In this document: positions 41,213-60,461 of the stretch, one piece after another | How the letters are laid out: every line of letters starts with the position of its first letter | Numbering within the stretch: the first letter of the stretch is position 1 | Source: Flavivirga amylovorans | GTDB taxonomy: Bacteria; Bacteroidota; Bacteroidia; Flavobacteriales; Flavobacteriaceae | DNA: 64,000 bases | Direction of reading: 5' to 3' | Assembly (NCBI RefSeq): GCF_030540875.1 | Contig: NZ_JAUOEM010000002.1 | Location: 62,001 to 126,000 of the forward strand | The notes under the pieces: generated by a model | What the model was told of the DNA's origin: nothing | Seen by the model: only the letters and a program-made list of their open reading frames with translations | The model's database searches: none | Position numbers and translations under genes: made by a program

Positions 41213-41282
41213 ACACAACGTTCCATGTATGGTGTCGTAGCTATCCCGCAGGGTAGCTATGCACTATACATATTGTTGTGTT
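41213..41282. repeat. attC-like site S11 (short), left border of defence cassette A
   Basis: AAC 41217-41219, GTT 41275-41277. GTAGCTATCCCGCAGGGTAGCTA hairpin core (as in S12). Flanks match S10 and S12 (GTTGTGTTT). Confidence 0.88.
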
Positions 41283-41320: not shown

Positions 41321-41390
41321 GCAAACATACTCTTTGACAAGTTTGGCTCGAGTGATTGGTTTTGAGCGACTTGGCAATGTGTATGATTGC
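41321..41390. repeat. Defence-chassis hairpin L-A
   Basis: GCAAACATAC-TCT-TTGACAAGT pairs with ACTTGGCAA-TGT-GTATGATTGC. Homologous to L-B, L-C and, in loop and TCT/TGT triad, to R-A, R-B, R-C. Lies just after the last gene of the operon. Confidence 0.7.
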
Positions 41391-41397: not shown

Positions 41398-42480
41398 TCA
41401 AAACAGTCCTTTATATAATTCATCTGTATCAAAATCCGGTGATCCTTGTCTAGAATAATAATAGGAGAATCGAGCTACAATGTCTTTTGTAAAAGTGCTA
41501 TTGATTGAAGCTTTACGTGTAAAATTTTGATTAAACTCTTTCGCTCTAATGGATTTCATTTTTTGAAAGTTAATTAGACCGCCTTCAATATCTTTATATT
41601 TTGGCAGAAAATGATATTTATTGGAGTAACTATTATGTATTAAACTTTTCAGTACGTATTCAGCTTCTTCTAATACTTCTTTAGAAGCTTTTCCTTTATT
41701 TATGACACCAACTTTTTCTTTTAAAATTCCTTCATTGGACGAGTCTATTTGCACAATTAAGATATCTTTTGCTTTTCCCTGTGCTAAGTCACATGAAGGT
41801 GTAAGTACAATGTAATTACTTGAAGTGTTGTTTTCAATAACTAGATCGCCAGTGAAAACATTAGGCTTTATACAAGGAGTAATATAAATTTCAGAAGGAT
41901 GATAATTTTCAAAACCAGACTCTTCATTTAATTCTAAATATTCCTGAATGTGAAGTAGTGTATATCTTAGAAGAGTTCTCTGTTTTTGTTCAGAAGTTCT
42001 AGTAGAGTCATTAATCCATAAATCCATAGAATTGGATAGATGATTCCAAAAAATCGTATTTAAATAGTTGTCTACGTCTCCTTTCTTTCCTAAGATTTTT
42101 GTAATTCCTGTTTCATAAATGTCGAGAATTTCCTGTAACACTTCTTTGAAGTCACCATCTCTTGATCTTTTTTTGAAGAAAGCATTTTCGTCTTTATCGA
42201 CTTGTCCTATGCTGCCAGAAACTACAAATATTGGAAACCTTAATGTTGATTCAATTTCATTTACAATTTCTAATCCTTCTAACTCTGTAGTATTAGACGA
42301 TAACTTTAAATCAACAATTGCAGCATCATAGTCAGGACTAATCAAGGATTCTTTAGCATTCTTAAGCGTTTCAACGATTTTATAAGTGACTTGTACACTA
42401 GATTTTTTATTGAAAGAATCTATATTATCTGAATACGATTGAATCGTAGCTTTATCATCTTCAACGATTAGTAAATTCAT
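41398..42480 (-). CDS. Response-regulator receiver protein with unknown effector domain
   Basis: 360 aa. Receiver domain about 1-120: acidic pocket NLLIVEDDK (EDD 7-9), phosphoacceptor Asp57 in AAIVDLKLS, Ser in FPIFVVSGS and a Lys in the FFKK segment. Residues 130-360 are not a known DNA-binding domain; the segment YIVLTPSCDLAQGKAKDILI is distinctive. It follows the GHKL/kinase-like gene by 4 nt, suggesting a phosphorelay pair. The C-terminal part may be the effector of the system. Confidence 0.8.
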   Translation of the reverse strand: MNLLIVEDDKATIQSYSDNIDSFNKKSSVQVTYKIVETLKNAKESLISPDYDAAIVDLKLSSNTTELEGLEIVNEIESTLRFPIFVVSGSIGQVDKDENAFFKKRSRDGDFKEVLQEILDIYETGITKILGKKGDVDNYLNTIFWNHLSNSMDLWINDSTRTSEQKQRTLLRYTLLHIQEYLELNEESGFENYHPSEIYITPCIKPNVFTGDLVIENNTSSNYIVLTPSCDLAQGKAKDILIVQIDSSNEGILKEKVGVINKGKASKEVLEEAEYVLKSLIHNSYSNKYHFLPKYKDIEGGLINFQKMKSIRAKEFNQNFTRKASINSTFTKDIVARFSYYYSRQGSPDFDTDELYKGLF

Positions 42481-42484
42481 AGTT

Positions 42485-44722
42485 CTATTGTATTTTAACT
42501 TCTATTTTAAAAAATGCTCCGTCTTCAGAATAAATTGCTTTTAAGTCACCATCATTCCTGCCTATTGCTTCTCCAGAAATAGCTAAACCTAAGCCTGTTC
42601 CACCTCCTGTTTTATTACTGAATTCTGGCTCAAATAATATTTCACTCTCAATTAGATTTTTTTCAATTCCTGGTCCAGAATCGCGGTATTCAATTATTAA
42701 TAAACCATCCTCTTCATAGGCTTTAAATTGAATCTTTTTTGGCTTGTCTTTATTATTTTGAAGCCAATAAATACTATTGTCTACTAAATTTGTAAACACT
42801 ATATAAAAATCTTCTTTCCATCCGTATCCTTTTAAATTAATATCACAGTCGATATGGATTTCTATATCTTGAGCGGCCAGCTCTGATAAGAATACATCCT
42901 TGACATTTTCAATAACATCAACAATAGAAAAATCTTTTTTACGATCTCTTTTCTTTGCAGAAAGTGGATCAAGCTTACCGAAAAGTTTTATGAATATTTT
43001 GCCCTGTTCGTCAATTACAGAAAGACGATCAATTATTTTATCCAATAAATCTTGATCAAAATTTTGTTCAAGCTCTTCTTTCCATTCAGTTATTAATGGA
43101 ATTTGATTTTTGAAATAACCAAGTGGTTTTCGACCTTCATGGAGAACAACATTTACAATTTTCCCAACCGTAGCTTGGCCTTGGTATAGTGCAATTATTT
43201 GTTTTAAGTCATTGGCTAGTTTATTATTTCTTTCTTCCTTATCAGAGATAAGTTTATTGATTTTCTTTCTTTTTTCTTTCTCAATTCCTAATGAATCAAG
43301 TTCAATATTGATTTTTTCTTGAAGGTCTTTAAAATTGTAGAGCTTGTTGATTTTTTCGTTGACATCACGATTACTTCTTCCTAGACCAACTCTTTGTCTA
43401 TATGCAAAACGCCTGTTTTCTAACTCCTTTAAGATTTGTTTTGCAATTTCTCTTAATCCAAAAAATTCAGGGTTTTCTTTTAGGCCATCCCTAGCACTTT
43501 TCTCTTCTAGGTTTGATTCTGTCTCTGATTCTATATGAATAAAGCCAATCACTTGATCACATCCAACTCTTAATGAAGGGTTCTGGATTCTTTGATTATC
43601 TAAGGATAGCCAATCATAACCTGCATCACCTAATGGTCTTATTCTAAACCCTTTACGATAAACTCCAATTCCGTTAAAAGTATCTAGTATTATTCTAGCT
43701 TCTCTTTTTCCAACAGACTCTCCTGTAATAGGGTCTTTTAATCCTCTTTCTATTAATGCATCTATCGAACTTGGGTCTCTATCGAAAACTCGAAAATCAA
43801 TTTTCAAATCTCCTGCAAAAGCTTGTTTTTCTTCATTTTTGTCCTGATTCAATAAAATTTTGAAATCTTTTAAAATTTCTGGAGGGCTATTTTTAATCCT
43901 GTTATTTTCAAATCGAATACTTGCAATCCCTTCTTTGGATACGACTCCAGAAATTCTGTAATCATATAATTCAAATAAAGGATAAGGCTCTATGTCTTCT
44001 GTAACATTTGAATAGCCCTCAAAAGGAAATTCTCCGAGTTCAAGGGTAATTTTAAAATTCTCTGTATCATCTTCAATTTGATGAATCTCTCTATCAACAG
44101 GCGGGATTAATTTCTTTAGTTCAGATTTTAAGTTTTTGAGTTGTTTTTCATTCCAATCATTTAAATGATTTTCATCTCCAACAATTATTATTTCAGTTCC
44201 CGAATCAGAACTTGATTTAAAATTTTCAATTAGAACATCAACATCTTCAAGGTATTTTGCTTTTTCAAAATCATCCCAAATTAAGTACAAGGTTGTTAGT
44301 TCTCCAGATTCATCAATGGTTTCCAGAATCATATCATCACCGATCATTGAAGCAGAGTATCTTCCAATACCTTTCTTTCCTTGCATTATTCTGCCTCCTG
44401 GGCTAACTGCTCGATGGAGTTTGTCGTCAGTCGAAGGAACCATCCATTTATCGGTTACAGTTTCAAAAGACATACCATGTCCTTTGTCTTTTATGACAAC
44501 TTTTATTCCTTTTACAGTTGTTGGTTTTCCTTCAATTTCTGCCTCTTTTGAAAATGGAAGCAGGGATATTTTACAGGTTTTTGAATCCGCATCATACGCG
44601 TTTTTAACTAATTCAACTATAGCAGCATATTTATCCTTAATTAAATCTCGGCCTATAGTAATTATATGTCTTCCTGCAGGCCTTATTTTATAAAGGCCAT
44701 CTTTTATTTTTTCGTCTGACAT
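42485..44722 (-). CDS. Protein with two GHKL ATPase domains (MORC/Hsp90-like plus histidine-kinase-like)
   Basis: 745 aa. First GHKL module at the N-terminus: VELVKNAYDAD (36-46), KDKGHGMS (78-84) and GKKGIGRYSA (115-124), the MORC/MutL/Hsp90 pattern. A second, histidine-kinase pattern lies at the C-terminus: an H-box-like VVLHEGRKPLGYF, N-box FTNLVDNSIYWL, DSGPGIE and GGGTGLGLAISGEA. A helical region with TSPRxx-free coiled coil (EKRKKINKLISDKEERNNKL) links them. It overlaps the methyltransferase gene by 19 nt. Known MORC-like ATPases are linked to restriction-modification; the fusion to a kinase with a partnering receiver is unusual. Confidence 0.82.
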   Translation of the reverse strand: MSDEKIKDGLYKIRPAGRHIITIGRDLIKDKYAAIVELVKNAYDADSKTCKISLLPFSKEAEIEGKPTTVKGIKVVIKDKGHGMSFETVTDKWMVPSTDDKLHRAVSPGGRIMQGKKGIGRYSASMIGDDMILETIDESGELTTLYLIWDDFEKAKYLEDVDVLIENFKSSSDSGTEIIIVGDENHLNDWNEKQLKNLKSELKKLIPPVDREIHQIEDDTENFKITLELGEFPFEGYSNVTEDIEPYPLFELYDYRISGVVSKEGIASIRFENNRIKNSPPEILKDFKILLNQDKNEEKQAFAGDLKIDFRVFDRDPSSIDALIERGLKDPITGESVGKREARIILDTFNGIGVYRKGFRIRPLGDAGYDWLSLDNQRIQNPSLRVGCDQVIGFIHIESETESNLEEKSARDGLKENPEFFGLREIAKQILKELENRRFAYRQRVGLGRSNRDVNEKINKLYNFKDLQEKINIELDSLGIEKEKRKKINKLISDKEERNNKLANDLKQIIALYQGQATVGKIVNVVLHEGRKPLGYFKNQIPLITEWKEELEQNFDQDLLDKIIDRLSVIDEQGKIFIKLFGKLDPLSAKKRDRKKDFSIVDVIENVKDVFLSELAAQDIEIHIDCDINLKGYGWKEDFYIVFTNLVDNSIYWLQNNKDKPKKIQFKAYEEDGLLIIEYRDSGPGIEKNLIESEILFEPEFSNKTGGGTGLGLAISGEAIGRNDGDLKAIYSEDGAFFKIEVKIQ

Positions 44723-45975
44723 AATATTTCTTTAATAATTTTTGAGATTTCGTAAGCCATAAGAGGTGGCACGGCATTTCCAATTTGTTTAAACGCTGGT
44801 GTTCGATTAACTCCTTCTCTCACTCCTTCAAAATAATAATCATCAGGGAAAGATTGAAGTCTAGCTGCTTCACGAATTGTTATAGAACGGTTTTGACTTA
44901 AATCGGGGTGTATATAATAATGACCATCTTTTGCAATATGTGCAACAACAGTTTGAGAATGAGGTTCATTGGCTGCAACTACTTTAAACCTGTCGAAGAA
45001 TGATGATCTATTTTTATGCGTTTTTAATTTTTCTGGTAAGTCATTGTAATGCAGCCTCTCTTTCTTTTTGTTCCATTTCTGAACTGCGATTCTATAAATT
45101 TCTTTATCCTGATCTGAATGTGGTCTAGCTTTGTGTTGTGTCAAAATATCAATTCCATTTCTGATGAAACTTTTATTCAAATATTCATTAGTAAGTGTTT
45201 TATATTTCACAAATTTATCTTGTCCTTCTCCCGCTTGTAGTTTAGGTAAATCAGTTAGTAAATCTTGTACTGAATATTTTGTTGATGAAAGATTTATTGC
45301 TTCCAAATCAGGAATTTGAAAATCAAATTTCTTATCCCAACCAATGATAATTATTCTTCTTCTGTTCTGTAATACACCAAAATTATTGGCTTCTACTGTG
45401 AAGAGTTTCATGTTGTAGCCTTTTTTGTCAAAAAGTTTTTTCATGTTATTCAGGTAAAGTCCGTCTTTAGCAGATTTTAATCCTATAACATTTTCAAACA
45501 CAAACACTTTTGGGTTATATTTTTCAAGATAACCTGCATATTGAACATAAAGGAAGTTTCTTGGATCACCAGACATCCCATTTTTAGACCTTGCTCGTCC
45601 AACAAGTGAATAAGCTTGGCAAGGAGGGCCACCAATAATTAAATCAACACTTTTGTTTTTTAGATTCTTCTGAATTCTCTCATGGATTACGTCATTGTTT
45701 TCCTCTGAGATTGGAAGATTTATAACGGAATTCAATAAGTTTTCTGGTACGAAAGAATATAGTTCAGTTCTTGTTATTTTTCCTTTTAGATACTCGACAT
45801 AAGTATCATATTGATCTACTGATTTGAGATAATGATATGCTGTACGAGTCTTTAAGGTGTTGCACGCAGCAGTATCTATTTCAACATGAGCAATAGGTTC
45901 AAACCCATTTCTTACAAAACCCTCTGATAGCCCACCAGCTCCTGCGAATAGGTCGATATAAGTCTTACCTTTCAT
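44704..45975 (-). CDS. DNA (cytosine-5) methyltransferase
   Basis: 423 aa. All m5C motifs in order: I DLFAGAGGLSEGF (8-20), IV GGPPCQAYS with catalytic Cys119, VI ENVIG (161), VIII QNRRRIIIIG, IX RSITIREAARLQSFPDDYYF, X QIGNAVPPLMA. The target-recognition region between VIII and IX is about 130 residues, so the recognition sequence is unknown. No classical restriction endonuclease accompanies it; the GHKL and receiver genes take that position. Overlaps the xre gene by 11 nt. Confidence 0.93.
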   Translation of the reverse strand: MKGKTYIDLFAGAGGLSEGFVRNGFEPIAHVEIDTAACNTLKTRTAYHYLKSVDQYDTYVEYLKGKITRTELYSFVPENLLNSVINLPISEENNDVIHERIQKNLKNKSVDLIIGGPPCQAYSLVGRARSKNGMSGDPRNFLYVQYAGYLEKYNPKVFVFENVIGLKSAKDGLYLNNMKKLFDKKGYNMKLFTVEANNFGVLQNRRRIIIIGWDKKFDFQIPDLEAINLSSTKYSVQDLLTDLPKLQAGEGQDKFVKYKTLTNEYLNKSFIRNGIDILTQHKARPHSDQDKEIYRIAVQKWNKKKERLHYNDLPEKLKTHKNRSSFFDRFKVVAANEPHSQTVVAHIAKDGHYYIHPDLSQNRSITIREAARLQSFPDDYYFEGVREGVNRTPAFKQIGNAVPPLMAYEISKIIKEILCQTKK

Positions 45976-46183
45976 CTTTTGTTGGGTTTAATAATTCTCT
46001 TATATCAACGTCTAGAGCTTCAGCAATCTCTACTAATGTTTCAAGTGAAGGCTGCATATCGTTCGTGCACCATCTTGAAACAGTAGTTCTGTTTTTGTCT
46101 ACTTTTTCCGATAGCCATTTGTTTGTTCTGTCTTGTTCAGCAAGCACTACCCTAATTCTATTGATTTGCTTTTTAGATGTCAT
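45965..46183 (-). CDS. Xre-family regulator of defence cassette A
   Basis: Start at 46183: MTSKKQINRIRVVLAEQDRT, then NKWLSEKVDKNRTTVSRWCT and SLETLVEIAEALDVDIRELL. 72 aa, single HTH. Clearly paralogous to the cassette C regulator at 59568 (KNRTTVSRWC / MNRTTVSKWC; DIRELL / EVRELL). First gene of the operon and divergent from the microprotein, so it likely controls both directions. Confidence 0.85.
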   Translation of the reverse strand: MTSKKQINRIRVVLAEQDRTNKWLSEKVDKNRTTVSRWCTNDMQPSLETLVEIAEALDVDIRELLNPTKDER

Positions 46184-46263
46184 TTGAATCGTATTATGTT
46201 GCATAAATAGCAATTAAGACAAATTTAGTTGATTAAAAACTTTTTATTTTGTTCTTTTTGCGA

Positions 46264-46351: not shown

Positions 46352-46555
46352 ATGAGTACGAGATATACCAAAGCCGATTTAGAGCAAATTGTATATAAAC
46401 AATTAGATAATCTAAACGCAATGCACGATTTACTGAAAATTATGAAAGTTCAAAATGACCTAATTCAAAGTATCAATCAGACACTCAGAGAAGAAATCGG
46501 TCAATTCAAAGAACAGCAAGTTATGTATCCAACTAGAAGAAAATCAAAATCGTAA
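46352..46555 (+). CDS. 67-aa helical microprotein of defence chassis, copy A
   Basis: MSTRYTKADLEQIVYKQLDN, then a long amphipathic helix and a basic tail ending RRKSKS. 64 of 67 residues equal copy B and about two thirds equal copy C. Predicted coiled coil, no known domain. Transcribed divergently from xre and the effector operon in all three cassettes. Could be an antitoxin, an inhibitor or a co-regulator; unknown. Confidence 0.85.
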   Translation: MSTRYTKADLEQIVYKQLDNLNAMHDLLKIMKVQNDLIQSINQTLREEIGQFKEQQVMYPTRRKSKS

Positions 46556-46576
46556 CTATTAGGAGCGGTGGGAAGG

Positions 46577-46636
46577 TTAAGCTCTTTTGGTTTTTTAGGG
46601 TCGGATTGTGTGATGGCAAAAACCAAATGTGCTTAA
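46577..46636. repeat. Defence-chassis hairpin R-A
   Basis: TTAAGC-TCT-TTTGGTTTTTT pairs with AAAAACCAAA-TGT-GCTTAA, loop TAGGGTCGGATTGTGTGATGG. Begins 21 nt after the microprotein stop. Confidence 0.75.
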
Positions 46637-46660
46637 TGTGCGGTTGGTTTTCCGAATGAA

Positions 46661-46732
46661 ACACAACGTTCTGTATAAGATGTCGTAGCCATCCCGCAGG
46701 GTGGCTATGCATTTTATACCTTGTTGTATGCC
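46661..46732. repeat. attC-like site S12 (short), between cassettes A and B
   Basis: AAC 46665-46667, GTT 46723-46725. GTAGCCATCCCGCAGGGTGGCTA core with changes that keep pairing relative to S11. Flanks match S11 and S13 (GTTGTATGCC). Confidence 0.88.
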
Positions 46733-46773
46733 GTTTTTATTTTATTCATTTCGTTTTTAGCGTTGGCATAAGA

Positions 46774-46832
46774 CATACTCTTTTGCAATTTTTGGCTTTA
46801 GCATTGGCTGGTGCGAATTGCAAATGTGTATG
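46774..46832. repeat. Defence-chassis hairpin L-B
   Basis: CATAC-TCT-TTTGCAATT pairs with AATTGCAAA-TGT-GTATG. Compared with L-A and L-C the inner stem bases differ but both arms changed together (covariation). Confidence 0.7.
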
Positions 46833-46836
46833 GTTT

Positions 46837-47562
46837 TTAAGCGTTGGCTTCTTCCTGAGCGTATTCCGTTTTTAATTCTTCAAATATCTTTTCAATTTCG
46901 GCATAATTCGGTTCCGCTGATAATTGGGTAATATCATAATCTAAACAAAATTCAATGTCCTTTTGCGACATATAATGTTCGTGTATCAATTCCTCGTTAA
47001 TCTGTTCTTGAATGTCAATATATCGTCTTTCTTCTTCGTCTTGACTTTCTATTAAAAATTTTTCGAAGCCATCTTGAATTGCTGATTTAGTTTTTTCTTG
47101 AATTTCGTCTGCGAATTTCAAAATTTCGGTGATTTTTTCATCAACTGTTTCTTGAGCTTTGAAATAAATGTTTCCATTACTGTGGGCAACTTCATTTCGT
47201 TGGTCAACAATTTTCTTGTATTTCCCAATTTGCTCCTTTCTCAATCCGAAAAAAGTAAATAATAGAAATATTCTTCTTTCATTTTCTTTACTATATGTAA
47301 ATGGTGAAGTCGCTGTTGAAAAACAATCATTGAAACCTAATGTGATTTTATCATAATCAGCTTGATGTATTTTCTTGATTTGCCAAACATTAAAATAAAC
47401 GAAACTCATAAACAGCATATGATATGCCATAAAAGAAAATTGATACTTTTCGTTTTCATAATTACTTTTGAAAGAATCCCACAAAAATTCAATATATTCT
47501 TGCTCTACTTGATTTTTAAAACGATTTGGAAGGTAATTTAATATTTCAGTTGCTTCTTCCAT
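46837..47562 (-). CDS. HEPN-domain protein in type I restriction operon
   Basis: About 241 aa, all-helical. RNEVAH at 122-127 is an Rx4H motif of HEPN ribonucleases. Start at the ATG overlapping the hsdM stop (TAATG); an upstream in-frame TTG at 47574 would extend by four residues. C-terminal half acidic and coiled. HEPN proteins are typical suicide RNases in defence; here it may be the abortive backup of the restriction system. Confidence 0.75.
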   Translation of the reverse strand: MEEATEILNYLPNRFKNQVEQEYIEFLWDSFKSNYENEKYQFSFMAYHMLFMSFVYFNVWQIKKIHQADYDKITLGFNDCFSTATSPFTYSKENERRIFLLFTFFGLRKEQIGKYKKIVDQRNEVAHSNGNIYFKAQETVDEKITEILKFADEIQEKTKSAIQDGFEKFLIESQDEEERRYIDIQEQINEELIHEHYMSQKDIEFCLDYDITQLSAEPNYAEIEKIFEELKTEYAQEEANA

Positions 47563-49484
47563 TATTCTGTCCAAACTTTAGCGATACTATCATTAATATT
47601 ATTCTCCTTTTGTTCAATTTCTTTTCCTAAAGTTTCTATTTCATTCTTGATTTTATCAACCTCATCAATTAGTTTTTGTTGCTCCTCAATACTTGGTAGT
47701 GGAATTTTAAGCTCTTTTAAAACTTTCACGGATGCAACATTTTTTATTGCAACACCCATTGTTGTTCTATTAAGGGCTTGTTGAAAAGAATTACTTTCCA
47801 TTAGTAATTTCAAGTATTTAGGTAAAATATTTTCAAGTGGCGTTAATTTTAGAAGTGCTTGGTTAATAATTCCTTTAGGTGCATTTTCTGGTATAATGGC
47901 AACTTTTCCCATAGTACCTGAGCAACTCATAATAATATCATTAGGCTTAATTTCAAAACCTAACATATCATTGAATTTTTCTTCTGTTATAAAATATCTA
48001 AACTCCTCGAATTGATTATTTATGGCGTGTGATTGCTCATAAACAGCAAGACCGTTTTCAACAAAAATCTCTTTTTTTAAACTTCCGCCAAAAGGACCTC
48101 TCTTAAATTTGCATACGTTACCTAGCTTTTCAAGATTTGAGTTAGTTGAAAAGTTAGCAATTTCCTTGTAGGCAAGTACTCTTAAAGAGTAATCACCATT
48201 TTCTGATATTTTTTCTTTTGAAATAGAATAAGCAAAATCTTTATTTTCAAAATCTACTCCTTTTGTTGTTTTATCTTTAAAGTCATTAATTGTTGTAACT
48301 GCTAATTCTAATTGCCCTCCTTTTATTGAGTTTCGTTGAGCGCCTAAACTATAACCATCATTTTCAATATCGATGAAAAGTATTTCTTTGCTATTTTTTG
48401 CTAAAGATTTATCTAAAATAAGAATTGATGTCTTGACGCCACTATAAGGATTAAAGACACCAGCAGGTAGACTAATTACTGAATGTAGATAATCATTAAC
48501 TAACAACTTACGAAGGTCTTTGTATGCTGAGCCATTTTGAAAAATAATACCTTCTGGAACAATTATACCAGCTCTACCATTTGGATTTAAATGTTCTGCG
48601 ATATAATCAACGAAAAGAACTTCACTTCGTTTACTTGAAATTGTAAATTTATTGTGTGGTCTTATACCTCCTTTTGGACTCATAAAGGGTGGATTAGCTA
48701 AAATAACATCAAAATTTTCATTCCAGCGGTCTTCACTACTTAAAGTATCATATTCATAAATATGTGGTTCTGTAAATCCGTGTAAGTACAAATTCACTAA
48801 ACTCAATCGCACCATATCAGGTGAGATATCATAACCAACAAAATTTTGAATGATTTTTTTCTGCTCGTCTGGTGTAAATTGATTGTTGTTTTTTTGTTTA
48901 AGATATTTAAAAGCAGAAATTAAAAAACCAGCAGTACCACAAGCTGGGTCCATTACAGTGTCTGTTTTGTTTGGGTCAACCACAGCAACCAAGAAATCAA
49001 TAATATGTCTAGGTGTTCTAAATTGGCCTGCATCACCTTGAGAACCCATTATTGACAATAAATATTCAAATGCATCTCCTAATTTTTCACTGTGGGTATA
49101 CTCAAATTCACCTATAGTTTTTAAAAATAGTTTTAGCGTTTCTGGGTCACGATATGGTAAATAGGCATTATTAAAAATATCTCTAAATAATTGTGGAATA
49201 TTAGAGTTTTTCTCCATATTCTCAATTGAATCAGAATATAAACGTAACATTTCAATCGCTGTTACTTTTGGGTCAAATAAGTTGTCCCAACTATATTTCT
49301 CAAAGTTTTCAGAGAAAAATTTAGCTTGACCACCTAGTTCAATGGATTCCTTATCCATATCATCCATAAACTTATAAATTAAGCCTATGGTAATTTGTTC
49401 TATCTGTGCTTTTGGGTCAGGAAGTTTGCCAACTAAAATGTCTCGGCAGTCGTCAATTCTTTTCTTTGTTATAGTATCTAACAT
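47562..49484 (-). CDS. hsdM: Type I restriction M subunit fused to a half specificity subunit
   Basis: 640 aa. N-terminal helical HsdM domain (1-170), SAM motif I DPACGTAGF (179-187), catalytic NPPF (264-267), giving N6-adenine methylation. From about 425 a single target-recognition domain with C-terminal spacer helix (PLPSIEEQQKLIDEVDKIKN, typical of HsdS) is fused. Normal HsdS has two TRDs, so the holoenzyme may recognise a palindrome via two fused subunits. Lies 9 nt after hsdR. Confidence 0.92.
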   Translation of the reverse strand: MLDTITKKRIDDCRDILVGKLPDPKAQIEQITIGLIYKFMDDMDKESIELGGQAKFFSENFEKYSWDNLFDPKVTAIEMLRLYSDSIENMEKNSNIPQLFRDIFNNAYLPYRDPETLKLFLKTIGEFEYTHSEKLGDAFEYLLSIMGSQGDAGQFRTPRHIIDFLVAVVDPNKTDTVMDPACGTAGFLISAFKYLKQKNNNQFTPDEQKKIIQNFVGYDISPDMVRLSLVNLYLHGFTEPHIYEYDTLSSEDRWNENFDVILANPPFMSPKGGIRPHNKFTISSKRSEVLFVDYIAEHLNPNGRAGIIVPEGIIFQNGSAYKDLRKLLVNDYLHSVISLPAGVFNPYSGVKTSILILDKSLAKNSKEILFIDIENDGYSLGAQRNSIKGGQLELAVTTINDFKDKTTKGVDFENKDFAYSISKEKISENGDYSLRVLAYKEIANFSTNSNLEKLGNVCKFKRGPFGGSLKKEIFVENGLAVYEQSHAINNQFEEFRYFITEEKFNDMLGFEIKPNDIIMSCSGTMGKVAIIPENAPKGIINQALLKLTPLENILPKYLKLLMESNSFQQALNRTTMGVAIKNVASVKVLKELKIPLPSIEEQQKLIDEVDKIKNEIETLGKEIEQKENNINDSIAKVWTE

Positions 49485-49493
49485 ATATGTTTT

Positions 49494-52025
49494 TTAAGCA
49501 GCAAACTGCTCTAGTTTTATATAATCTTTAATGTACACTGGAATCACTTCACGATATTTTGTTGCAACTGCCTTAAATTGTGAAATGGTCAGTGTAGGAT
49601 TGGTTTGTAATGCTTGAAAATCTTTTGTTTCAATTATTCTTCTAATGTCTTGGTCAACGATATAGGCTTTAAAAAAATATTTCAAAGCTCTAATGTTAAT
49701 GTCATTTTCTTCTGGTGGATAAATAGAAATGAATTTGTCAAATTCTTCTTCTAATAATTCATCCTTTGATTTGAATTTTGGAATAATACCAAATACCTTT
49801 TCTACAACTTCACGAATAGAAACTTTTCTGTCAATTTTGGCAGCTTTTCGCAGTTTTTCTAAATTGAAATATTCTTCTGGTTTATCAAATATTTCTGCTT
49901 GTATATGGCTAACAACGTGTTCCCAATTGCCAAGTTCTACATTCTTTTTTATTATATCATCCATTGCGATTCTGTCTTCAAACTTTTTGAAAAGCTCTCT
50001 GTCAATTCGCATTCCTTCATACCCAATTTGTTCTTCATTAACCGTTAAAATTGGGTCAGGTCTTAAACTGTTGTATTTGTCAATGTCAATTCCGTCACCA
50101 CCATTTTCACCTTTTCCGCTTTTAGGTTTTGGTAGTTTTAGTTTTTCGTCATAATCGAATTTTTCTTCGAAATATTCGCAATTAGCAAAGAAGTCGAATA
50201 ATTTAAACACTTCTTTTTCTTCTTTAATCGTTTCCTCTTCGTTGAGTTCATTTTTAAATTTGTGTGTAAACGTATGTTTACGAGTTCCACGACCTTTTAT
50301 TTGTACAAAATCAGCAGGACTAAATATTGGTCGCATCATACATAAATTAAGTAAATCAGGACAATCGTAACCAGTTGTCATCATACCAACCGTTACACAA
50401 ATTCTAGTTTTACCAGTTTTATAACCTTCTAACCAAGATGATTTTCCATTAAGGTTATTGTTTGTAAAATTGATAGTCATTTGTTGAGCATCACCAACTT
50501 GTGAAGTCACTTGAACCGCGAAATCTGAATTGTATTTATTTGGATATAATTGTTCTGCGAAGTCGTTCAGAATTTCAGTTATTTTTCTTGCGTGATTTTG
50601 ACTAACTGCAAAAATGATTGTTTTGCCAATTTCTTTTGTAATTGGGTCACGTAAAGCATTTTCTAAAAACGTTTTACAGAAAACACGATTTGTTTTTTCT
50701 GAGAAAAACTTTTTCTCAAAATCTCTCGAAACAAAGGTTTCGGTTTCTTCTCCTTCTTCTGTTGTAATTGCAACAGAATAGCCTTCGTCAGAAAGTAATT
50801 GCGTTGTTATTTCTGTTCTAGCATCTAAAACTCTTGGGTTGATTAAGAAACCATCTTTAACACCATCTAGTAAAGAATAACGAAAAGTTGGGTCGCCACC
50901 TTCGCAACCGAAGGTTGCATAGGTGTCTCTGAGCAAACGTCTTTCGATTTCTCTTGGGTCGTTTTCTTTTACTTTGTCAATATCAACACTTTTTAAATAG
51001 TCTTTTGGTGTTGCTGTTAAACCTAATTTATAACCGTGAAAATATTCAAAAACTGCTCTTGCGTTACCAGAAATTGAACGGTGAGATTCATCCGAAATAA
51101 GCAAGTCAAAATCTGTTGGTTTAAACTCGTATCTGTATTTGTTATCGAACATTAAAGATTGAATAGTAGTAACAACTATGTCTGCTTTTCTCCAATCGCT
51201 TTTATGTTCTTTGTAAATAAATGTTGTGTAATCTGGTTTAAGATAATTAGTAAAAGCTTTCCAAGCTTGGTCTTCTAATTCCAATCTGTCTACAAGAAAT
51301 AATACACGTCTTGCGTTTTGAGTTCTTAGAAAAAGTCGAATTACACCAGCAGCAGTAAGTGTTTTTCCAGTTCCAGTCGCCATTTCAAAAAGAAAACGGT
51401 CTTTTTTATTTGCAACAGCTTGTTGTAATTTTTGAATTGCCTTTAATTGGTAATGTCTTAAAAATCGTAATCCATTATTCCAGACAAAGTCTTTACTGTC
51501 AATTGGATTTCCTTTCCATTCAGGCCTTTCTGCATAGTCTGGCATTTGAACGATTGCAATAAAATCATTTTTAATTTCTTCGTTTGCCAATGATGTTCTG
51601 TCAGGATTCCATTCCTTAATTGCTCCAATTTCACTTGGTGAAGGAAATTTGTAAATAGGTTTAGGATTCCCTTTTTCTAAGTTCCAGAGGAAATGTACAA
51701 TTCCATTTGAAAGAATTATAAATTGTGCTCCAACTGTTTTTGCATATTTTCTAGCTTGTTCTTTTGCAACAAGTGGATGAAGACTTTCTTTTTTTGCTTC
51801 TAAAACGCAAATTGGTTTGTTGTTGCTGTCAACCAATAAAAAGTCTAAAGAACCAGACTTTACTTTTTCAAAATCATTTCCCCAAGCATCAACTTCGGTT
51901 TGGGTTATTTTAACATGATTTTCAAGTAAGATATTCGCAGAACCTTGCTCATTGTCAAAGAATCTCCATTCCGCTTCTTCAAGCAGTTGGTTTATTTTAA
52001 TTCTTGCGTGTGCTTCATTTTTCAT
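49494..52025 (-). CDS. hsdR: Type I restriction endonuclease R subunit
   Basis: 843 aa. PD-(D/E)xK nuclease: Asp61 ... Glu76-Ala-Lys78 (SGSLDFLLVD ... CVLEAKK). SF2 translocase: ATGTGKT (216-222), DESH (312-315), TATP, motif VI QIKGRGTRKH. C-terminal helical docking domain. It cuts DNA after ATP-driven translocation. Shorter than EcoKI-type R; of the type I R group with a compact C-terminus. Confidence 0.95.
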   Translation of the reverse strand: MKNEAHARIKINQLLEEAEWRFFDNEQGSANILLENHVKITQTEVDAWGNDFEKVKSGSLDFLLVDSNNKPICVLEAKKESLHPLVAKEQARKYAKTVGAQFIILSNGIVHFLWNLEKGNPKPIYKFPSPSEIGAIKEWNPDRTSLANEEIKNDFIAIVQMPDYAERPEWKGNPIDSKDFVWNNGLRFLRHYQLKAIQKLQQAVANKKDRFLFEMATGTGKTLTAAGVIRLFLRTQNARRVLFLVDRLELEDQAWKAFTNYLKPDYTTFIYKEHKSDWRKADIVVTTIQSLMFDNKYRYEFKPTDFDLLISDESHRSISGNARAVFEYFHGYKLGLTATPKDYLKSVDIDKVKENDPREIERRLLRDTYATFGCEGGDPTFRYSLLDGVKDGFLINPRVLDARTEITTQLLSDEGYSVAITTEEGEETETFVSRDFEKKFFSEKTNRVFCKTFLENALRDPITKEIGKTIIFAVSQNHARKITEILNDFAEQLYPNKYNSDFAVQVTSQVGDAQQMTINFTNNNLNGKSSWLEGYKTGKTRICVTVGMMTTGYDCPDLLNLCMMRPIFSPADFVQIKGRGTRKHTFTHKFKNELNEEETIKEEKEVFKLFDFFANCEYFEEKFDYDEKLKLPKPKSGKGENGGDGIDIDKYNSLRPDPILTVNEEQIGYEGMRIDRELFKKFEDRIAMDDIIKKNVELGNWEHVVSHIQAEIFDKPEEYFNLEKLRKAAKIDRKVSIREVVEKVFGIIPKFKSKDELLEEEFDKFISIYPPEENDINIRALKYFFKAYIVDQDIRRIIETKDFQALQTNPTLTISQFKAVATKYREVIPVYIKDYIKLEQFAA

Positions 52026-52050
52026 AATTCCATTTAGGTTAAAGTGGAAT

Positions 52051-52266
52051 TTAATTCTCCAATTTCAATTCACTAAACACTTCCTTGAACATTTCTCCTG
52101 GATCAATATCAATGGCTAGAGCAATCAAATAGAGTTCATCTGCTCGAAGTTTTGTCGATTCATTTGAAGTCAACTGTGATAGTCGAGCTTGACTGATTCC
52201 AGTCCGTCTGGAAACCATTGCTCTATTCACAGATTTCTTAGTAAGATATAGTCCTAAAGAAGTCAT
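52051..52266 (-). CDS. Xre-family regulator of defence cassette B
   Basis: 71 aa. MTSLGLYLTKKSVNRAMVSR, then RTGISQARLSQLTSNESTKL: HTH, unrelated in detail to the regulators of cassettes A and C. It sits in the same place on the chassis (first gene of operon, divergent to microprotein), so regulators have been exchanged. Confidence 0.82.
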   Translation of the reverse strand: MTSLGLYLTKKSVNRAMVSRRTGISQARLSQLTSNESTKLRADELYLIALAIDIDPGEMFKEVFSELKLEN

Positions 52267-52405
52267 AATACTTTTGAATTTGTTAAGATAAATATATACT
52301 TATTAAATAAAAATGTAGAATATCTAAAGTTTTGTTTTGAATTTAGATAGATTATCATTAGATTTGTTTAGAAAGTCTAAAGAATTATTTATAAAGTATA
52401 ATGAT

Positions 52406-52609
52406 ATGAGCAAAAGATATACCAAAGCTGATTTAGAACAAATTGTATATAAACAATTAGATAATCTAAACGCAATGCATGATTTGTTACGAATTATGAA
52501 AGTTCAAAATGACCTAATCCAAAATATCAATCAAACGCTTAGAGAAGAAATAGGTCAATTCAAGGAACAACAAGTAATGTATCCAACAAGAAGAAAGTCA
52601 AAATCGTAA
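52406..52609 (+). CDS. 67-aa helical microprotein of defence chassis, copy B
   Basis: Start at 52406 by homology (MSKRYTKADLEQIVYKQLDN); the longer frame from 52337 reads non-homologous leader. Differs from copy A at only three residues (positions 3, 29, 40). The near identity, despite different effectors and different regulators, indicates recent exchange or gene conversion of this end of the cassette. Confidence 0.85.
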   Translation: MSKRYTKADLEQIVYKQLDNLNAMHDLLRIMKVQNDLIQNINQTLREEIGQFKEQQVMYPTRRKSKS

Positions 52610-52629: not shown

Positions 52630-52691
52630 ATTAAGCTCTTTTGGTTTTTTAGCGTTGGATTGTGTGATGGCAAAAACCGAATGTGCTTAAT
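52630..52691. repeat. Defence-chassis hairpin R-B
   Basis: ATTAAGC-TCT-TTTGGTTTTTT with AAAAACCGAA-TGT-GCTTAAT; loop TAGCGTTGGATTGTGTGATGG, sharing TAGCGTTG with L-C. Confidence 0.75.
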
Positions 52692-52712: not shown

Positions 52713-52850
52713 TGGCATACAACGGTCTCGGCTATGAGTAGTTGCGTGGGTTAGCACTTAACTTTGCAAGTACGCACCAAGTTGGAAATTCCGCAGGAAT
52801 TTCCAAAGTAGGCGAGTAGTAGCAATTACTTATAGCCATTGTTGCCACCA
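52713..52850. repeat. attC-like site S13
   Basis: AAC 52721-52723, GTT 52841-52843. GGAAATTCCGCAGGAATTTCC inner hairpin. Flanks match S12 and S14 (GTTGCCACCA). Confidence 0.88.
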
Positions 52851-55245: not shown

Positions 55246-55447
55246 GTTTTACAACGTCTCGTATAAGAAACGTAGGGCAGTTGATAAGCACTTTCGTTTC
55301 GGTTTATTACTTAGCTAAATATAAATATTTTGCTTTTATCTTTTCTACTATAAATGCCAAATTTTATATTTAGCGGACTTTATTAATAAACACAGACCTT
55401 TCAATTTAGCACAGACGCCCTATGTTTTTTATACATTGTTAGGTTTT
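55246..55447. repeat. attC-like site S16 (long type), left border of defence cassette C
   Basis: AAC 55253-55255, GTT 55438-55440. GAAACGTAGGGCAGTTGATAA body, near-identical to S6. Flanks match S15 and S17 (GTTAGGTTT). Confidence 0.85.
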
Positions 55448-55469: not shown

Positions 55470-55541
55470 GCATACATACTCTTTGACAAGTTTTGGCTAG
55501 CGTTGCTGGTTTTTGCGTGACTTGGCAATGTGTATGGATGC
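55470..55541. repeat. Defence-chassis hairpin L-C
   Basis: GCATACATAC-TCT-TTGACAAGT with ACTTGGCAA-TGT-GTATGGATGC; loop TTTGGCTAGCGTTGCTGG. Confidence 0.7.
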
Positions 55542-55556: not shown

Positions 55557-58535
55557 TCATAGTAGTCTTTCTTCTAATAAATCTTTCCAAATTATAAAAC
55601 CTTTCCTCTCGTCAGAATAGTCATGAATTAATCGGCTAAAATTTTCAGGTTGATTTTGAAGGAAGATTTGTCTCCCATTGTTCCTAATATTATTAAGATC
55701 AAGGTCAATTGCTTGTAATTTTTGAGATAGAACATTTTTGTTAATGTGCCAAATATATGTAGCTTCTTCAGTATCCAAAGTTTCGAGAACAATATGGTAT
55801 TGTTCTATTCCCGTTAATAAAAATACAAAAGAAAATGGATTCAAGACAAATCGAAGTTTTAACGTGTTGCTGTCATGATTCATCGCTAAATATCTTAATT
55901 GCCGAAAATGTCTAACATTCTCATTTTGTAAAAGAGAATTCAGTAATTCATCCTCCGATTTGTATAACTCGACTCCATTTCTTTCTTGTAGTTGGTCTAA
56001 GTCAAGTAAATTTTCATCTTTTTTTTCTGGGTATTTTTTGCCGAGAATTTCTTTTTGAGTAAAACGAAATTTCACACTTTCAATGATTTCTCTATTAATC
56101 ATTTCCAAATCTGTAGAAGTGGCTATTTGAGAAACTAATTTTCCATCTGAAATTTCTGCAAAGATGTTTGCTCTAACATTTTTAGATTTTAAAAACTTAG
56201 CAAAATAAGGTTTAAGGACATCAAACTCTGGTCTTATTTCATCATTTTCTATTTCAAACTCAAGTTCTATTGGGAGTTTTGATTCCTTGTATTTGAAAGC
56301 AATAGCTCCATATCGGAAATCAAGTTGGTCAATCGATATTTTTATTTGTTTATCAATGGTAACAATATTTTTAGATACTTCTTCTATGTGGTCTTGTTCA
56401 TCAAATAACGATGCTTGACGATCAAGATGTCTGTAATAAGTATTTCTTTTCAGGAAAAGTTTATTTAAGTAATCAATTTTCCGATCGTGATAATCATAGA
56501 TAATAGGAGTTATTTCTGATCTTTGGACACGACCGATATATTGAATGAGTTTTCCTTTGAAAGAGAAAGGGTAGACTAAAAAGAGACATGAAGCATTTTG
56601 CAAATCGGTTCCTTCTCCAAAAAATTGTCCTGTAGTTATTAGCGCTTGATAATTTCCTTCATTTAGAATCTTCCATTTGGCTTTTTGATTACTTTCTGAA
56701 TCCTCTCCACTTAAGATGATAGTTTCAAAAGATTGTTTTAGAAATTGATATAACGTATCAATATGTTCTTTTCGTTCAGTAATTAGGATAACCTTTTTTC
56801 CAGAGTTTAATTCTTTGTGTACATCATGAAGAATAAACTTATTCCTAGTAGAATCATGAACAAGCATCTTTGATAATGTTTCAAACGTGTCAGTTTTAGA
56901 ATTAAAAGGAATATCTAATGTTGTTTCTTGGATGTTAATTCTTGCCCTTTTATAATTTTTAATTTCTTCGGGTTTAATGTCAGCTATAATTTTACCTAAA
57001 TGAATAAAGATTTGCTTTCCATCACTTCCTTTACGGAAAGGTGTTGCGGTTAAACCATATTGATAATAAGGAGATAGTTTAGAAATGGTTTTTCTGAATG
57101 TTTCTGCTGGAATATGATGACATTCATCAATGATTACTGTTCCAAATAATTTGTTTAGATTTTTAATCTCTTGTTTTTCAAGTTGTTTTCCTAAACTCTG
57201 AATCATCGCTACTGTTATATGTTTACCAACTTTAGCTTTACCTTGTCCTATTTTTCCAATTTCATTTTTAGGGATTTCAAGAAAAGCCTGAATTCGCTCA
57301 ATCCATTGTTCTAGTAATTGTTTACGATGTACTACGATTAAAGCTGGTTGTTGCTTTTCTGCGATAATTTTTAGTCCTATCACGGTTTTCCCCGAACCAG
57401 GAGGTGCTGTAATTACACCAAGATCTTTTTTAGTTACAATCTCAATTGCCTTATTTTGATGTGGTCTAAGGGTTAAATTGGGAGAGAAAAGTACTGTTTG
57501 AAGTTTCTTTCTCTCATCGAGAAATTTAAAATCAATCTTTTGCTGTTTGCAATACCGAATTAGTTTTCCTATAAAACCTCTTGGAATGATGATTTCATTT
57601 TCAGTTTCTTCGATGAATTTGAAATACCGTTCTGTACTCCATGTACTTTTATTCGTTTTCTTTTTAATGAAGTATTCTGGATTTGAAAAGTTGAGTTCAT
57701 CTTTCAGAAAATTGATTAATTCTGATGTTATTCCTGATCTGTTAAGCCGAATAGAATTATTAAGAGTTATATGTAATTTGGTTGAATGAATTCTTCTGGT
57801 ATCAGAAGAAGGTAGGTCGTTTACTATTAGAGATTCAAATATTTCATCTAGATGAGTAGTTTTTACTCTAAGAATAGAAGATAGAAAATTCCATTGATTT
57901 TCTATTGGATTTAAATTCTCATTTACAAAACAACTGTTTCCTTGTTCCCATGCTGTTTTATAAAATGGTAATGCAATTAAATTCCCTAATCCTTTTCCAG
58001 AGAGAAAGTTTTGATTTGGAAACAATCGATCAAAACTTGAACTTTTGTCGAAAGCTGAAAAAACACCGATTTCTTCGAGTATAGAAATCAAAATCTTTCT
58101 ACTTCTTATTGCTGGGTACGGTTGATCAAAAAATATCCAAACGTGACCGCCATTACCTGATTTTGATCGTTCAAGATATGCTGGTATACCTTTACTTGAA
58201 CATGCATTAATGAATGACCGACTATCTTCTTCCCAGTTTTGTTTATCGAAATCTGAGGCAATAAACCATGAAGTATTGTCCTTGAGTAAAGGGTATATGC
58301 CAACTAGTTGTTCACCATTAAGGTGTTTAGTGATTTGTTGGTCTGTAAGCAGGAGGTATGTTTTATCATTATAGTTTTTAAAAGTACCACCTTTCATTTT
58401 ATGAAGCCGATATCTATATGGATCATAATGATACGCAGGCATGTATCCGCTTTTGTTTCCTTTTTGCCAGTGTATTGCAAAAACGTCTTCTCTACCTTTG
58501 AATAAAGTTTTAATCAGGTTGATTTCCTTGTTCAT
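55557..58535 (-). CDS. TOTE-like archaeo-eukaryotic primase fused to SF2 helicase
   Basis: About 992 aa from the ATG at 58535. N-terminal AEP-type domain: IASDFDKQNW (about 92-101) and GNGGHVWIFFDQPYPA (about 127-142) plus SSSFDRLFPNQ match the primase of TOTE conflict systems. SF2 helicase: APPGSGKTV (377-385), DECHH (470-474), TATPFRKGSDGK, motif VI YIGRVQRSE. C-terminal ~280 residues unknown. TOTE systems are predicted to attack or remodel invader nucleic acid. Overlaps the DUF1016 gene by 26 nt. Confidence 0.85.
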   Translation of the reverse strand: MNKEINLIKTLFKGREDVFAIHWQKGNKSGYMPAYHYDPYRYRLHKMKGGTFKNYNDKTYLLLTDQQITKHLNGEQLVGIYPLLKDNTSWFIASDFDKQNWEEDSRSFINACSSKGIPAYLERSKSGNGGHVWIFFDQPYPAIRSRKILISILEEIGVFSAFDKSSSFDRLFPNQNFLSGKGLGNLIALPFYKTAWEQGNSCFVNENLNPIENQWNFLSSILRVKTTHLDEIFESLIVNDLPSSDTRRIHSTKLHITLNNSIRLNRSGITSELINFLKDELNFSNPEYFIKKKTNKSTWSTERYFKFIEETENEIIIPRGFIGKLIRYCKQQKIDFKFLDERKKLQTVLFSPNLTLRPHQNKAIEIVTKKDLGVITAPPGSGKTVIGLKIIAEKQQPALIVVHRKQLLEQWIERIQAFLEIPKNEIGKIGQGKAKVGKHITVAMIQSLGKQLEKQEIKNLNKLFGTVIIDECHHIPAETFRKTISKLSPYYQYGLTATPFRKGSDGKQIFIHLGKIIADIKPEEIKNYKRARINIQETTLDIPFNSKTDTFETLSKMLVHDSTRNKFILHDVHKELNSGKKVILITERKEHIDTLYQFLKQSFETIILSGEDSESNQKAKWKILNEGNYQALITTGQFFGEGTDLQNASCLFLVYPFSFKGKLIQYIGRVQRSEITPIIYDYHDRKIDYLNKLFLKRNTYYRHLDRQASLFDEQDHIEEVSKNIVTIDKQIKISIDQLDFRYGAIAFKYKESKLPIELEFEIENDEIRPEFDVLKPYFAKFLKSKNVRANIFAEISDGKLVSQIATSTDLEMINREIIESVKFRFTQKEILGKKYPEKKDENLLDLDQLQERNGVELYKSEDELLNSLLQNENVRHFRQLRYLAMNHDSNTLKLRFVLNPFSFVFLLTGIEQYHIVLETLDTEEATYIWHINKNVLSQKLQAIDLDLNNIRNNGRQIFLQNQPENFSRLIHDYSDERKGFIIWKDLLEERLL

Positions 58536-59562
58536 GAGTTCCTGATTTATTCTTAGCGATCTCAATGGCTTGATGTAGCTTATTTTGTAATACTTCTTTA
58601 GTAGGAAGAAGTGTTAAATACTCGGCTACTCTTATATTACTTTTGTCCAATTGTAATAGTTCTATATGTTCTTCATTTTTTCCAGTGCATAAAATCAAAC
58701 CAATTGGACTACCTTCTCCTTCAATAGATTCATTTTTTTCAAGGTAACGTAGATACAATTCCATTTGCCCTTTATATCCAGCTTCAAATTCTCCAATTTT
58801 TAGATCTATTGCTACCAATGATTTCAACCTTCGGTGATAAAATAGCAAATCAATGTAGTAATCTCTATCATCTATTGTTATTCGTTTTTGACGTGCCATA
58901 AAGGCAAAATCAGTACCCAGTTCTGTAATAAACTTTTGAAGTTCTACAAGAATGGAGCTTTCTAAATCCTTTTCAGAATAGGAGTCTGATAATCCTAAGA
59001 AATCAAGAAAGTAGGGATCTCTAAAAACTAAATCTGGTGTAATTTTTTGCTCTTTATTCAGCTGCGAAAGATCATTTTTTACTGTTTGTTCTGGTTTTTT
59101 ACTTATAGCTGTACGTTCATAAAGCATTGAATTTATTCGTTCTCTAAAAGTACGGACACTCCATTTTTCATGAATACACAACTGGATATAAAATTCACGT
59201 TTTAGCGGGTCTTCCATTGGTAGAATAGTCAATAGATGTGTCCAGCTCAATTGTCGTATCAGCGGTACGACAATCTTTTCATCTGGAAAACAATTAGCAA
59301 ATTGCATCATTCTGCGTAAATTTTTCTCAGAAAATGAGGTTCCATATTCAGTTACCAATTGTCGTGACAGTGATACGACAATTTGTTTTCCATATGTTCC
59401 TCTTTCATTTTTTAAGACCTCTTTGTTAATTTTTGTGCCAATCTGCCAATACATTTGACTCATCGTTGCATTAACTGAAAGTGCAATTTGTTGTTTGCTA
59501 TTCTCTATAAGTAGCTGAATGTCTTTAGCAATACTTTGTATGTTATTTAATTCATTACTCAT
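58510..59562 (-). CDS. DUF1016/YhcG-type PD-(D/E)xK nuclease
   Basis: 350 aa. N-terminal DUF1016_N helical region (IALSVNATMSQMYWQIGTKI, GTYGKQIVVSLSRQL, SEKNLRRMMQFANCFPDEKI) and C-terminal nuclease: RDYYIDLLFYHRRLKSLVAIDLKIGEF-type core with Asp and Asp-x-Lys. Predicted Holliday-junction-resolvase-like enzyme often found in defence islands and next to type I restriction. Coupled to the primase-helicase. Confidence 0.9.
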   Translation of the reverse strand: MSNELNNIQSIAKDIQLLIENSKQQIALSVNATMSQMYWQIGTKINKEVLKNERGTYGKQIVVSLSRQLVTEYGTSFSEKNLRRMMQFANCFPDEKIVVPLIRQLSWTHLLTILPMEDPLKREFYIQLCIHEKWSVRTFRERINSMLYERTAISKKPEQTVKNDLSQLNKEQKITPDLVFRDPYFLDFLGLSDSYSEKDLESSILVELQKFITELGTDFAFMARQKRITIDDRDYYIDLLFYHRRLKSLVAIDLKIGEFEAGYKGQMELYLRYLEKNESIEGEGSPIGLILCTGKNEEHIELLQLDKSNIRVAEYLTLLPTKEVLQNKLHQAIEIAKNKSGTHEQGNQPD

Positions 59563-59567
59563 GTGAA

Positions 59568-59777
59568 TTAGCTTTTTGTTGAAATAAGTAATTCTCTTAC
59601 CTCTAAGTCGAGTACTTTTGCTATTTGAAATAGAGTTTCAACCCTTGGTTGCATTTCATTCCTACACCATTTTGAAACTGTTGTACGATTCATTTCCAAT
59701 TGATCTGCCAACCAATTATTAGTTTTCCCCTTTTCTGCTAAAACAGCTTTTATGCGATTGTAAACTTCTTTGTCCAT
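59568..59777 (-). CDS. Xre-family regulator of defence cassette C
   Basis: 69 aa. MDKEVYNRIKAVLAEKGKTN, NWLADQLEMNRTTVSKWC, VETLFQIAKVLDLEVRELL. Paralogue of the cassette A regulator. Only 5 nt before the DUF1016 gene. Likely binds the palindrome 59885-59899. Confidence 0.85.
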   Translation of the reverse strand: MDKEVYNRIKAVLAEKGKTNNWLADQLEMNRTTVSKWCRNEMQPRVETLFQIAKVLDLEVRELLISTKS

Positions 59778-59945: not shown

Positions 59946-60149
59946 ATGAGCACAAGATATACTAAAGCAGACTTAGAGCAATTAGTCTATTCACAGTTAG
60001 AAAATCTCAATGCTATGCATGACCTATTAAGTATCATGAAACATCAAAATGAGTTAATTGAAAATGCTAATAAGAAATTGAAAGACGAAATATCCGAGTT
60101 CAAGGAAAGCCAAGTCAAATATCCTGTTGGTAAACGATCTAGAAAATGA
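59946..60149 (+). CDS. 67-aa helical microprotein of defence chassis, copy C
   Basis: MSTRYTKADLEQLVYSQLEN, long amphipathic helix, basic end KRSRK. Same length as A and B; the first 28 residues are nearly invariant, the helix middle and tail vary. Conservation of the N-terminal half points to a common partner. Confidence 0.85.
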   Translation: MSTRYTKADLEQLVYSQLENLNAMHDLLSIMKHQNELIENANKKLKDEISEFKESQVKYPVGKRSRK

Positions 60150-60166: not shown

Positions 60167-60231
60167 ATTTAAGCTCTTTTGGTTTTTTAGGGGTGGCTTT
60201 GTATGATGGCAAAAACCAAATGTGCTTAAAT
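60167..60231. repeat. Defence-chassis hairpin R-C
   Basis: ATTTAAGC-TCT-TTTGGTTTTTT with AAAAACCAAA-TGT-GCTTAAAT. Relative to R-A an extra T in one arm is balanced by an extra A in the other. Confidence 0.75.
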
Positions 60232-60260: not shown

Positions 60261-60461
60261 AACCTAACGGTCTTGTGTATGAAACGTAGCGTGTAAAAAG
60301 ACGCTAATTTTTCGGTTTAACACAGAGCCGAATTTTTATGTTTTGTTTTTACTTTTTCTTTATTAAAAGCCAAATTTAAAAATTTGGCGGTCTCAGCAAA
60401 TAAGCACAAATCTTTTGGTTTAGCACTTATTAGCTATGTTTTATACACCGTGTTAGGCACT
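60261..60461. repeat. attC-like site S17 (long type)
   Basis: AAC 60266-60268, GTT 60452-60454. GTGTATGAAACGTAGCGTG body like S8. Flanks match S16 and S18 (GTTAGGCAC). Core GTTAGGC fits the integron consensus GTTRRRY. Confidence 0.88.

Follow-up and report, generated by a model that had tools for sequence, protein, structure and literature searches.

Short, imperfect DNA hairpins that occur in pairs and are used as single strands are known from REP/RAYT and from the ends of IS200/IS605. In integrons, the bottom strand of attC is the strand bound and recombined by the integrase, as described in PMC2727003, and PMC8138268 presents the IntI insert as essential for integron function, with incomplete conservation in an integron-like subgroup. 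For Bacteroidota, PMC9024848 names one complete integron of the Bacteroidetes, that of Salinibacter ruber M1, earlier finds being array-less integrases only, and PMC10013915 reports a Tenacibaculum isolate in which IntegronFinder detected no integron. The word Bacteroid* is absent from PMC8352920, and PMC8618304 and PMC9668308 count Bacteroidota among the integron-bearing phyla. Because papers already list the phylum, the presence of integrons in Bacteroidota is not new. Arrays of the integron-like kind described below are known. The literature searched, from which most subscription papers and all bioRxiv preprints were absent, contained no account of paired hairpins at the ends of cassettes, and we know of no integron description in which large cassettes carry such a pair. 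Our main reading, to which we assign a probability of roughly 50%, is that the hairpins form the two structured ends of large multi-gene cassettes, in an integron-like array of Bacteroidota, and act there as single-stranded DNA on either side of attC.

We scanned the window, the whole 64-kb stretch of DNA analysed here, for the pattern outer stem-TCT-inner stem ... inner stem-TGT-outer stem. The direct scan returned exactly six places, all on the plus strand, while 20 dinucleotide-shuffled controls gave 10 matches in total (0-3 each). This confirmed the original prediction of six homologous hairpins in the same orientation, above the level of the shuffles. The TCT/TGT triad amounts to a C-G pair flanked by two T.T mismatches. 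GCGTTGG-like boxes lie before, within and after the hairpins, which account for 11 of the 13 matches to this box on the plus strand of the window. Two sub-types could be distinguished, type 2 with the outer stem CATAC/GTATG and type 1 with the outer stem TTAAGC/GCTTAA, and the six copies form three pairs in the order type 2, cargo, type 1, each around one minus-strand operon. The predicted bracketing of defence modules was thus borne out, but not as three left and three right copies around a single region.

All six hairpins were recovered by both the direct scan and the covariance model described below. In module M1, type 2 (41326..41385) and type 1 (46576..46637, the copy from which the original prediction started) enclose a 360-aa ORF, a double-HATPase GHKL protein, a DrmMII-like C5 cytosine methylase and an HTH regulator (41398..46213, minus strand). 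Module M2, between type 2 at 46774..46832 and type 1 at 52630..52691, carries a HEPN-like ORF together with HsdM-S-like and HsdR-like proteins of a type I restriction-modification system (46837..52270, minus), and an HTH-like ORF seen by eye at about 52066-52266 (minus). Module M3, between type 2 at 55475..55536 and type 1 at 60167..60231, carries an AEP-TOTE primase-helicase and a YhcG/PDC-S02 nuclease (55557..59777, minus), upstream of which another minus-strand HTH-like ORF was seen by eye. From 38226 to 63749 the main genes lie on the minus strand, and the plus-strand ORFs are either small or overlap minus-strand genes. In its left part, the window is interrupted by two broken transposase-like gene copies (30468-31627 and 36559-38133, plus strand) and holds two ParE/RelE-like toxin-antitoxin pairs (32070-32676 and 35789-36326, minus strand), all recognized by eye; the second of these pairs adjoins an attC-like site at 35584-35776.

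Directly before each type 1 hairpin of the window lies a plus-strand ORF of 67 aa (46352..46555 in M1, beginning MSTRYTKADLEQ; 52406..52609 in M2; 59946..60149 in M3). The ORF is coiled-coil-like, keeps a constant position and reads into type 1 in 11 of the 36 modules analysed below. Comparison with NCBIfam and Pfam gave nothing over cut-off, placing it in no known family. A search with this ORF led to 40 loci in named genomes, 19 of which have a type 1 hairpin after its stop codon. The genome of the window contains a fourth copy (G000:C7:436256-436438, L008), with no hairpin behind it.

An Rfam search of the window gave no match above the gathering threshold at the hairpins, a tRNA being the sole match. 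We built a covariance model from 30 hairpins of both types, aligned as one structure with 18 pairs. Thirteen of the 18 stem pairs change on both sides, compared with a mean of 9.8 after shuffling (2 of 500 shuffles as high), and the covariation score of 0.526 was reached by none of 500 shuffles (0.174 +/- 0.016), in agreement with the predicted covariation of the stems. One outer stem pair is unpaired in 13 of the 30 aligned copies. Since most of these copies had been chosen by a scan that demanded the triad, its invariance among them is partly built in. At E<=1 the model found eight copies in the 4.86-Mb genome of the window, namely the six of the window and one further pair. Searches confined to the window's phylum, with E-values that are rough, gave matches in 133 of 299 genomes of the family (E<=0.01) and in 69 of 395 genomes of a phylum sample (E<=1e-4); the hairpins thus have many further covarying copies in other genomes, rather than none. 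Hairpins were also present in plasmid records, on three Bacteroidota replicons, and none were found in phage records. From 57 sources we collected 114 model hits, which after removal of 10 opposite-strand duplicates left 104 places and 102 distinct sequences. Both TCT and TGT are present in 95 of these 102, so that the triad, claimed to be invariant, is so in the six copies of the window but not family-wide. Two weak matches, L017:4259 and L029:4873, were typed by our rule as type 1 but look like type 2 partners, and lie outside the 36 modules.

The genes of the array are separated by imperfect palindromes with AAC/GTT boxes, of which the window contains 12 found by script and two short ones found by eye. 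The script was purpose-written, is not IntegronFinder and yields chance sites; with a stricter filter it retained 149 attC-like sites in 28 loci. In reading direction, the boxes include GTTAGGC, GTTAGGT and GTTGTGT. All sites listed here read on the minus strand. The site of M1 (41217..41277 from box to box, R arm GTTGTGTTT on the plus strand) and that of M2 (46665..46725, R arm GTTGTATGCC on the plus strand), the other box of which begins M1, are the two seen by eye. The script placed the site of M3 at 55253..55440 (R arm GTTAGGTTT on the plus strand), and the sites before M2 and before M3 in reading direction at 52721..52843 and 60266..60454. The remaining sites belong to hairpin-free cassettes, three at 38691-38877, 39360-39484 and 39965-40089, two at 54092-54216 and 54658-54783, and three, closest to the recombinase gene, at 61575-61700, 63112-63237 and 63771-63893. 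Because hairpin-free cassettes share the same arrays, the hairpins are evidently dispensable for the reaction, which counts against the main reading.

To place the hairpins relative to cassette ends, we used 36 two-ended modules from 31 sources, with ends 1.3-9.7 kb apart. In 33 of the 36, an R arm of 8-13 nt stands ahead of type 2 and appears again, in reverse complement, past type 1. The match averaged 8.7 nt against 5.1 nt with permuted partners, and none of 500 permutations over the 36 modules was as high. Type 2 is separated from its R arm by 35-49 or 62-78 nt, and type 1 from its own by 28-38 or 61-66 nt, L030 being an outlier. The two spacings of each side are usually coupled, exceptions being for example L099:5919 and L021. 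Read from the sequence, the AAC box has apparently turned into AAT in L030 and L100, and L022, which differs in sequence past the hairpin, has no R-arm match. A loose AAC box occurs within 75 nt after type 1 in 52 of 58 copies and a loose GTT box within 85 nt before type 2 in 46 of 46, some of both by chance. Given the R arms shared by both ends in 33 of 36 modules, the hairpin pair sits just inside the ends of one cassette, and matching R arms are what a circularising cassette requires. We consider it very probable from these sequences that the hairpins are paired at cassette ends in an integron-like array. In the reading direction of the cassette, minus here, the order is R' box, type 1, operon, type 2 and attC-like site. 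Type 2 lies a median of 14.5 nt from the last stop codon of the operon, and type 1 a median of 56 nt before the first start codon (25 modules without the plus-strand ORF). Intervals bounded by attC-like sites had a median length of 5.5 kb when they contained a hairpin pair (n=19) and of 0.83 kb when they contained none (n=97; p=2e-11 by Mann-Whitney test), a comparison in which missed attC sites fuse cassettes and lengthen intervals, and in which four intervals with a single hairpin were placed in neither class. M1 and M2 of the window were left out of this count because missed attC sites merge their cassettes.

The array adjoins the 3' end of a tyrosine recombinase gene (C6:126181-127071, minus strand, equivalent to L056:682-1572), 181 bases past the end of the window. 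Next to the gene, where an integron would have its attI site, there is a palindrome-like stretch at about 600-680 of L056. Its product is the genome's top match to the integron-integrase model, below the curated cut-offs (TIGR02249, 205.6 versus 265; NF040815, 214.7 versus 220). TIGR02249 aligns in two pieces, 2-178 and 241-314, and the IntI-specific insert of the patch III region is absent, about 20 residues standing in place of 62 model positions. As this insert is missing, we classify the array as integron-like and not as an integron proper. Seven relatives of the recombinase retain all the catalytic columns (R, K, H, R, H, Y), and the closest solved structures are XerA-like (183 and 170.5 bits), IntI4 coming third (163.3). 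At E<=1e-50, 115 of the 133 hairpin genomes have such a relative, leaving 18 without one, as do 80 of 166 others (Fisher p=1.5e-12, kinship ignored). The relatives lie beside first-position cassettes in L009, L012 and L034, and not in L015 and L027. Relatives were found in L009, L012, L034, L099, L112 and L114, and several of them are extended by about 100 aa at the N-terminus. A zinc-finger-like ORF of 119-130 aa (CxxC...GR.DK.FC) stands divergently beside the recombinase gene in L056 (1648-2013, plus strand), L099 and L112, and ORFs matched to it by size and position alone stand beside the recombinase in L009, L012 and L034. In a Pfam scan of the divergent ORFs, that of L056 had one zinc-finger match under cut-off and those of L012 and L099 had none.

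Whole cassettes are shared between genomes. A MerT-ArsR-like cassette is 91-95% identical across four genera (L081, L086, L103, L115), with the same hairpin pair, and the cassettes of L030 and L034 are 92% identical. The similarity continues through both hairpins and stops 34-54 nt past type 1 (28-29 nt in L030/L034), R' lying about 30 nt beyond type 1 in the shared cassettes. As the similarity ends beyond the hairpins, they move within the unit and are not its joint. The occurrence of whole cassettes in different genera gives indirect support to excision and capture by the integrase, as far as sequence comparison can indicate. MerT with ArsR, the latter named by eye, is a metal-resistance-like cargo in the same vehicle.

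We next examined cargo in regions L097-L116, which are a non-random set selected mostly for several hairpin matches. The largest protein was scanned with PADLOC in 22 of the 23 two-ended modules of these regions, L103 being omitted as 92% alike to L115. Seventeen of the 22 had a match (E<=1e-15), to restriction or methylation systems of types I, II and IIG, Wadjet JetC, Mokosh MkoA, a ZorD-like helicase and, weakly, type III. At this threshold there was no match for L098, L109, L115, L099 and L101; among these proteins, Pfam identified MscS in L109, MerT in L115 and Hsp70 in L099. With 17 of 22 positive and MerT, MscS or Hsp70 among the others, defence is dominant in these non-randomly chosen regions without being the rule. 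The large PADLOC-negative proteins L098:4792-8490 (1232 aa) and L101:741-3401 (886 aa) belong possibly to undescribed defence systems. Our cargo protein set drew on 16 loci and took in 47 of the 53 proteins on a list that omits some ORFs.

To see which strand would fold, we counted wobble pairs. Read on the plus strand, 206 of 263 candidate attC-like sites contained 398 G.T against 67 A.C pairs, in a search that treats both alike, the 57 candidates with other spacers being excluded and some of those kept being chance sites (for example at 3811, 18786 and 49480 of the window). The G lies on the 5' arm in 320 of the 398 G.T pairs, perhaps at one inherited position. As ninety candidates of opposite polarity show, the finder also yields chance matches. 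The hairpins gave 31 G.T against 3 A.C pairs, a count that omits the two outermost pairs and, in type 2 only, the innermost pair, and that comes from related copies and a model that may favour G.T. Predicted folding was stronger on the plus strand in 101 of 102 copies as RNA and in 95 of 102 as DNA, and never on the minus strand. Among cargo ORFs of at least 90 aa, 110 are antisense to this hairpin strand and six lie on it. Judged by the wobble pairs, hairpins and attC-like sites probably share one folding strand, and we infer that the plus strand, antisense to the cargo, probably corresponds to the attC bottom strand.

That the hairpins act as bottom-strand single-stranded DNA beside attC is in our view an even bet. 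They would work as single strands on both sides of attC. In the free circular cassette, attC would lie between a type 2 and a type 1 hairpin. The hairpins might hold attC in its folded form, label the strand or be bound by a recombination partner. They could instead act in RNA, as insulators or regulators situated in the operon's leader and 3' end or in antisense transcripts, where they would stop read-through from entering or leaving each defence cassette or tune RNA stability. Their positions, 14.5 nt after the stop and 56 nt before the start, are where terminators and leaders sit, both hairpins point the same way in reading direction, as terminators would, and in the 11 modules mentioned above the 67-aa ORF reads into type 1. 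The original prediction had set terminators aside on the ground that direct repeats cannot serve as such, an argument that fails for an array read in one direction. An RNA function nevertheless seems unlikely to us: in 101 of 102 copies the predicted fold is weaker on the operon strand, which also carries the mismatches, and because the operon transcript would fold less well, the terminator reading is disfavoured. By eye, no T-run follows the stems in the window, where, moreover, no plus-strand ORF of at least 80 aa reads into type 2 from its own cassette. None of 10 terminator-like sites in 41001-61000 falls at a hairpin, though that scan was limited to loops of 3-8 and is blind to these hairpins. 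The structured RNA suggested by the original prediction is conceivable, but the best-folding strand is antisense to the cargo.

The folded bottom strand could alternatively provide start sites for second-strand synthesis or for transcription of single-stranded DNA, making a long cassette double-stranded or expressed after uptake or excision. Single-strand origins and single-strand promoters exist in other elements, and both the strand bias shared with the attC-like sites and the presence in long cassettes would fit. We think this improbable, as there are two hairpins where one would suffice and inspection by eye revealed no promoter consensus. In 41001-61000, sigma-70-like sites were no more frequent than in shuffled sequence (77 against 85.2 +/- 10.2), in a scan blind to promoters of the Bacteroidota type. 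A further proposal, which takes in the second class of recombination site suggested by the original prediction, is that the hairpins are points of cargo exchange, where new genes join at the inner edges of constant ends by homologous or other recombination. From the comparison of modules, cargo can apparently be replaced inside constant ends: L099, L102, L104, L112 and L113 carry unrelated cargo within the same GTTGTAAGTA ends, L112 has, relative to L102, an extra gene 16-29 nt inside type 2, and L108 and M2 of the window have hsdR and part of hsdM in common but different type 1 ends. The latter two are, however, the only such cases, and both coincide with gene ends. In most of the 15 pairs of related modules the likeness extends across at least one hairpin. 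Whole cassettes join at the GTT/AAC boxes of attC-like sites, 28-78 nt outward of the hairpins, and shared cassettes are alike through both; this speaks against the hairpins as recombination sites and leaves cargo exchange a long shot.

Long arrays with defence cargo occur here in marine relatives, and current tools may miss them. The hairpin pair is directly searchable and points to cassettes that are large and mostly devoted to defence, so that it offers a way towards new defence systems. With it, the origin of cassettes and the means by which an integron moves one of 5-10 kb become testable questions. Tentatively, and with less confidence than in the main reading, one can imagine two cassette classes throughout Bacteroidota, served by a recombinase without the insert: small ordinary cassettes, and large operons, mostly against phages, with dedicated single-stranded DNA hairpin ends. 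The ends would be constant and the operons placed between them, and they would enable the arrays to carry systems of up to nearly 10 kb. If so, the hairpin ends may reveal how cassettes are made.

Compared with known systems, the hairpins resemble intrinsic terminators in lying shortly after the last stop codon, but differ in their A+T-rich stems, their loops of about 20 nt, the lack of a T-run and an operon strand that is the poorer folder. Like REP/RAYT and IS200/IS605 hairpins they are paired, but the copies examined are pairs inside attC-bounded cassettes. With attC they have in common their size of about 60 nt, a block of internal mismatches enclosed by two stems and one predicted folding strand. 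Unlike attC, they have no AAC/GTT box at the base of the stem and are conserved in sequence, the moved units do not end at them, and an ordinary attC-like site stands beside each pair. The array itself is integron-like in its tandem cassettes of mostly one orientation, its GTT/AAC boxes, the related recombinase alongside, the matching R arms at both cassette ends and the single folding strand that is predicted to be preferred. It differs from an integron in a recombinase that is without the IntI insert and under the curated cut-offs, and in large cassettes that carry a hairpin pair.
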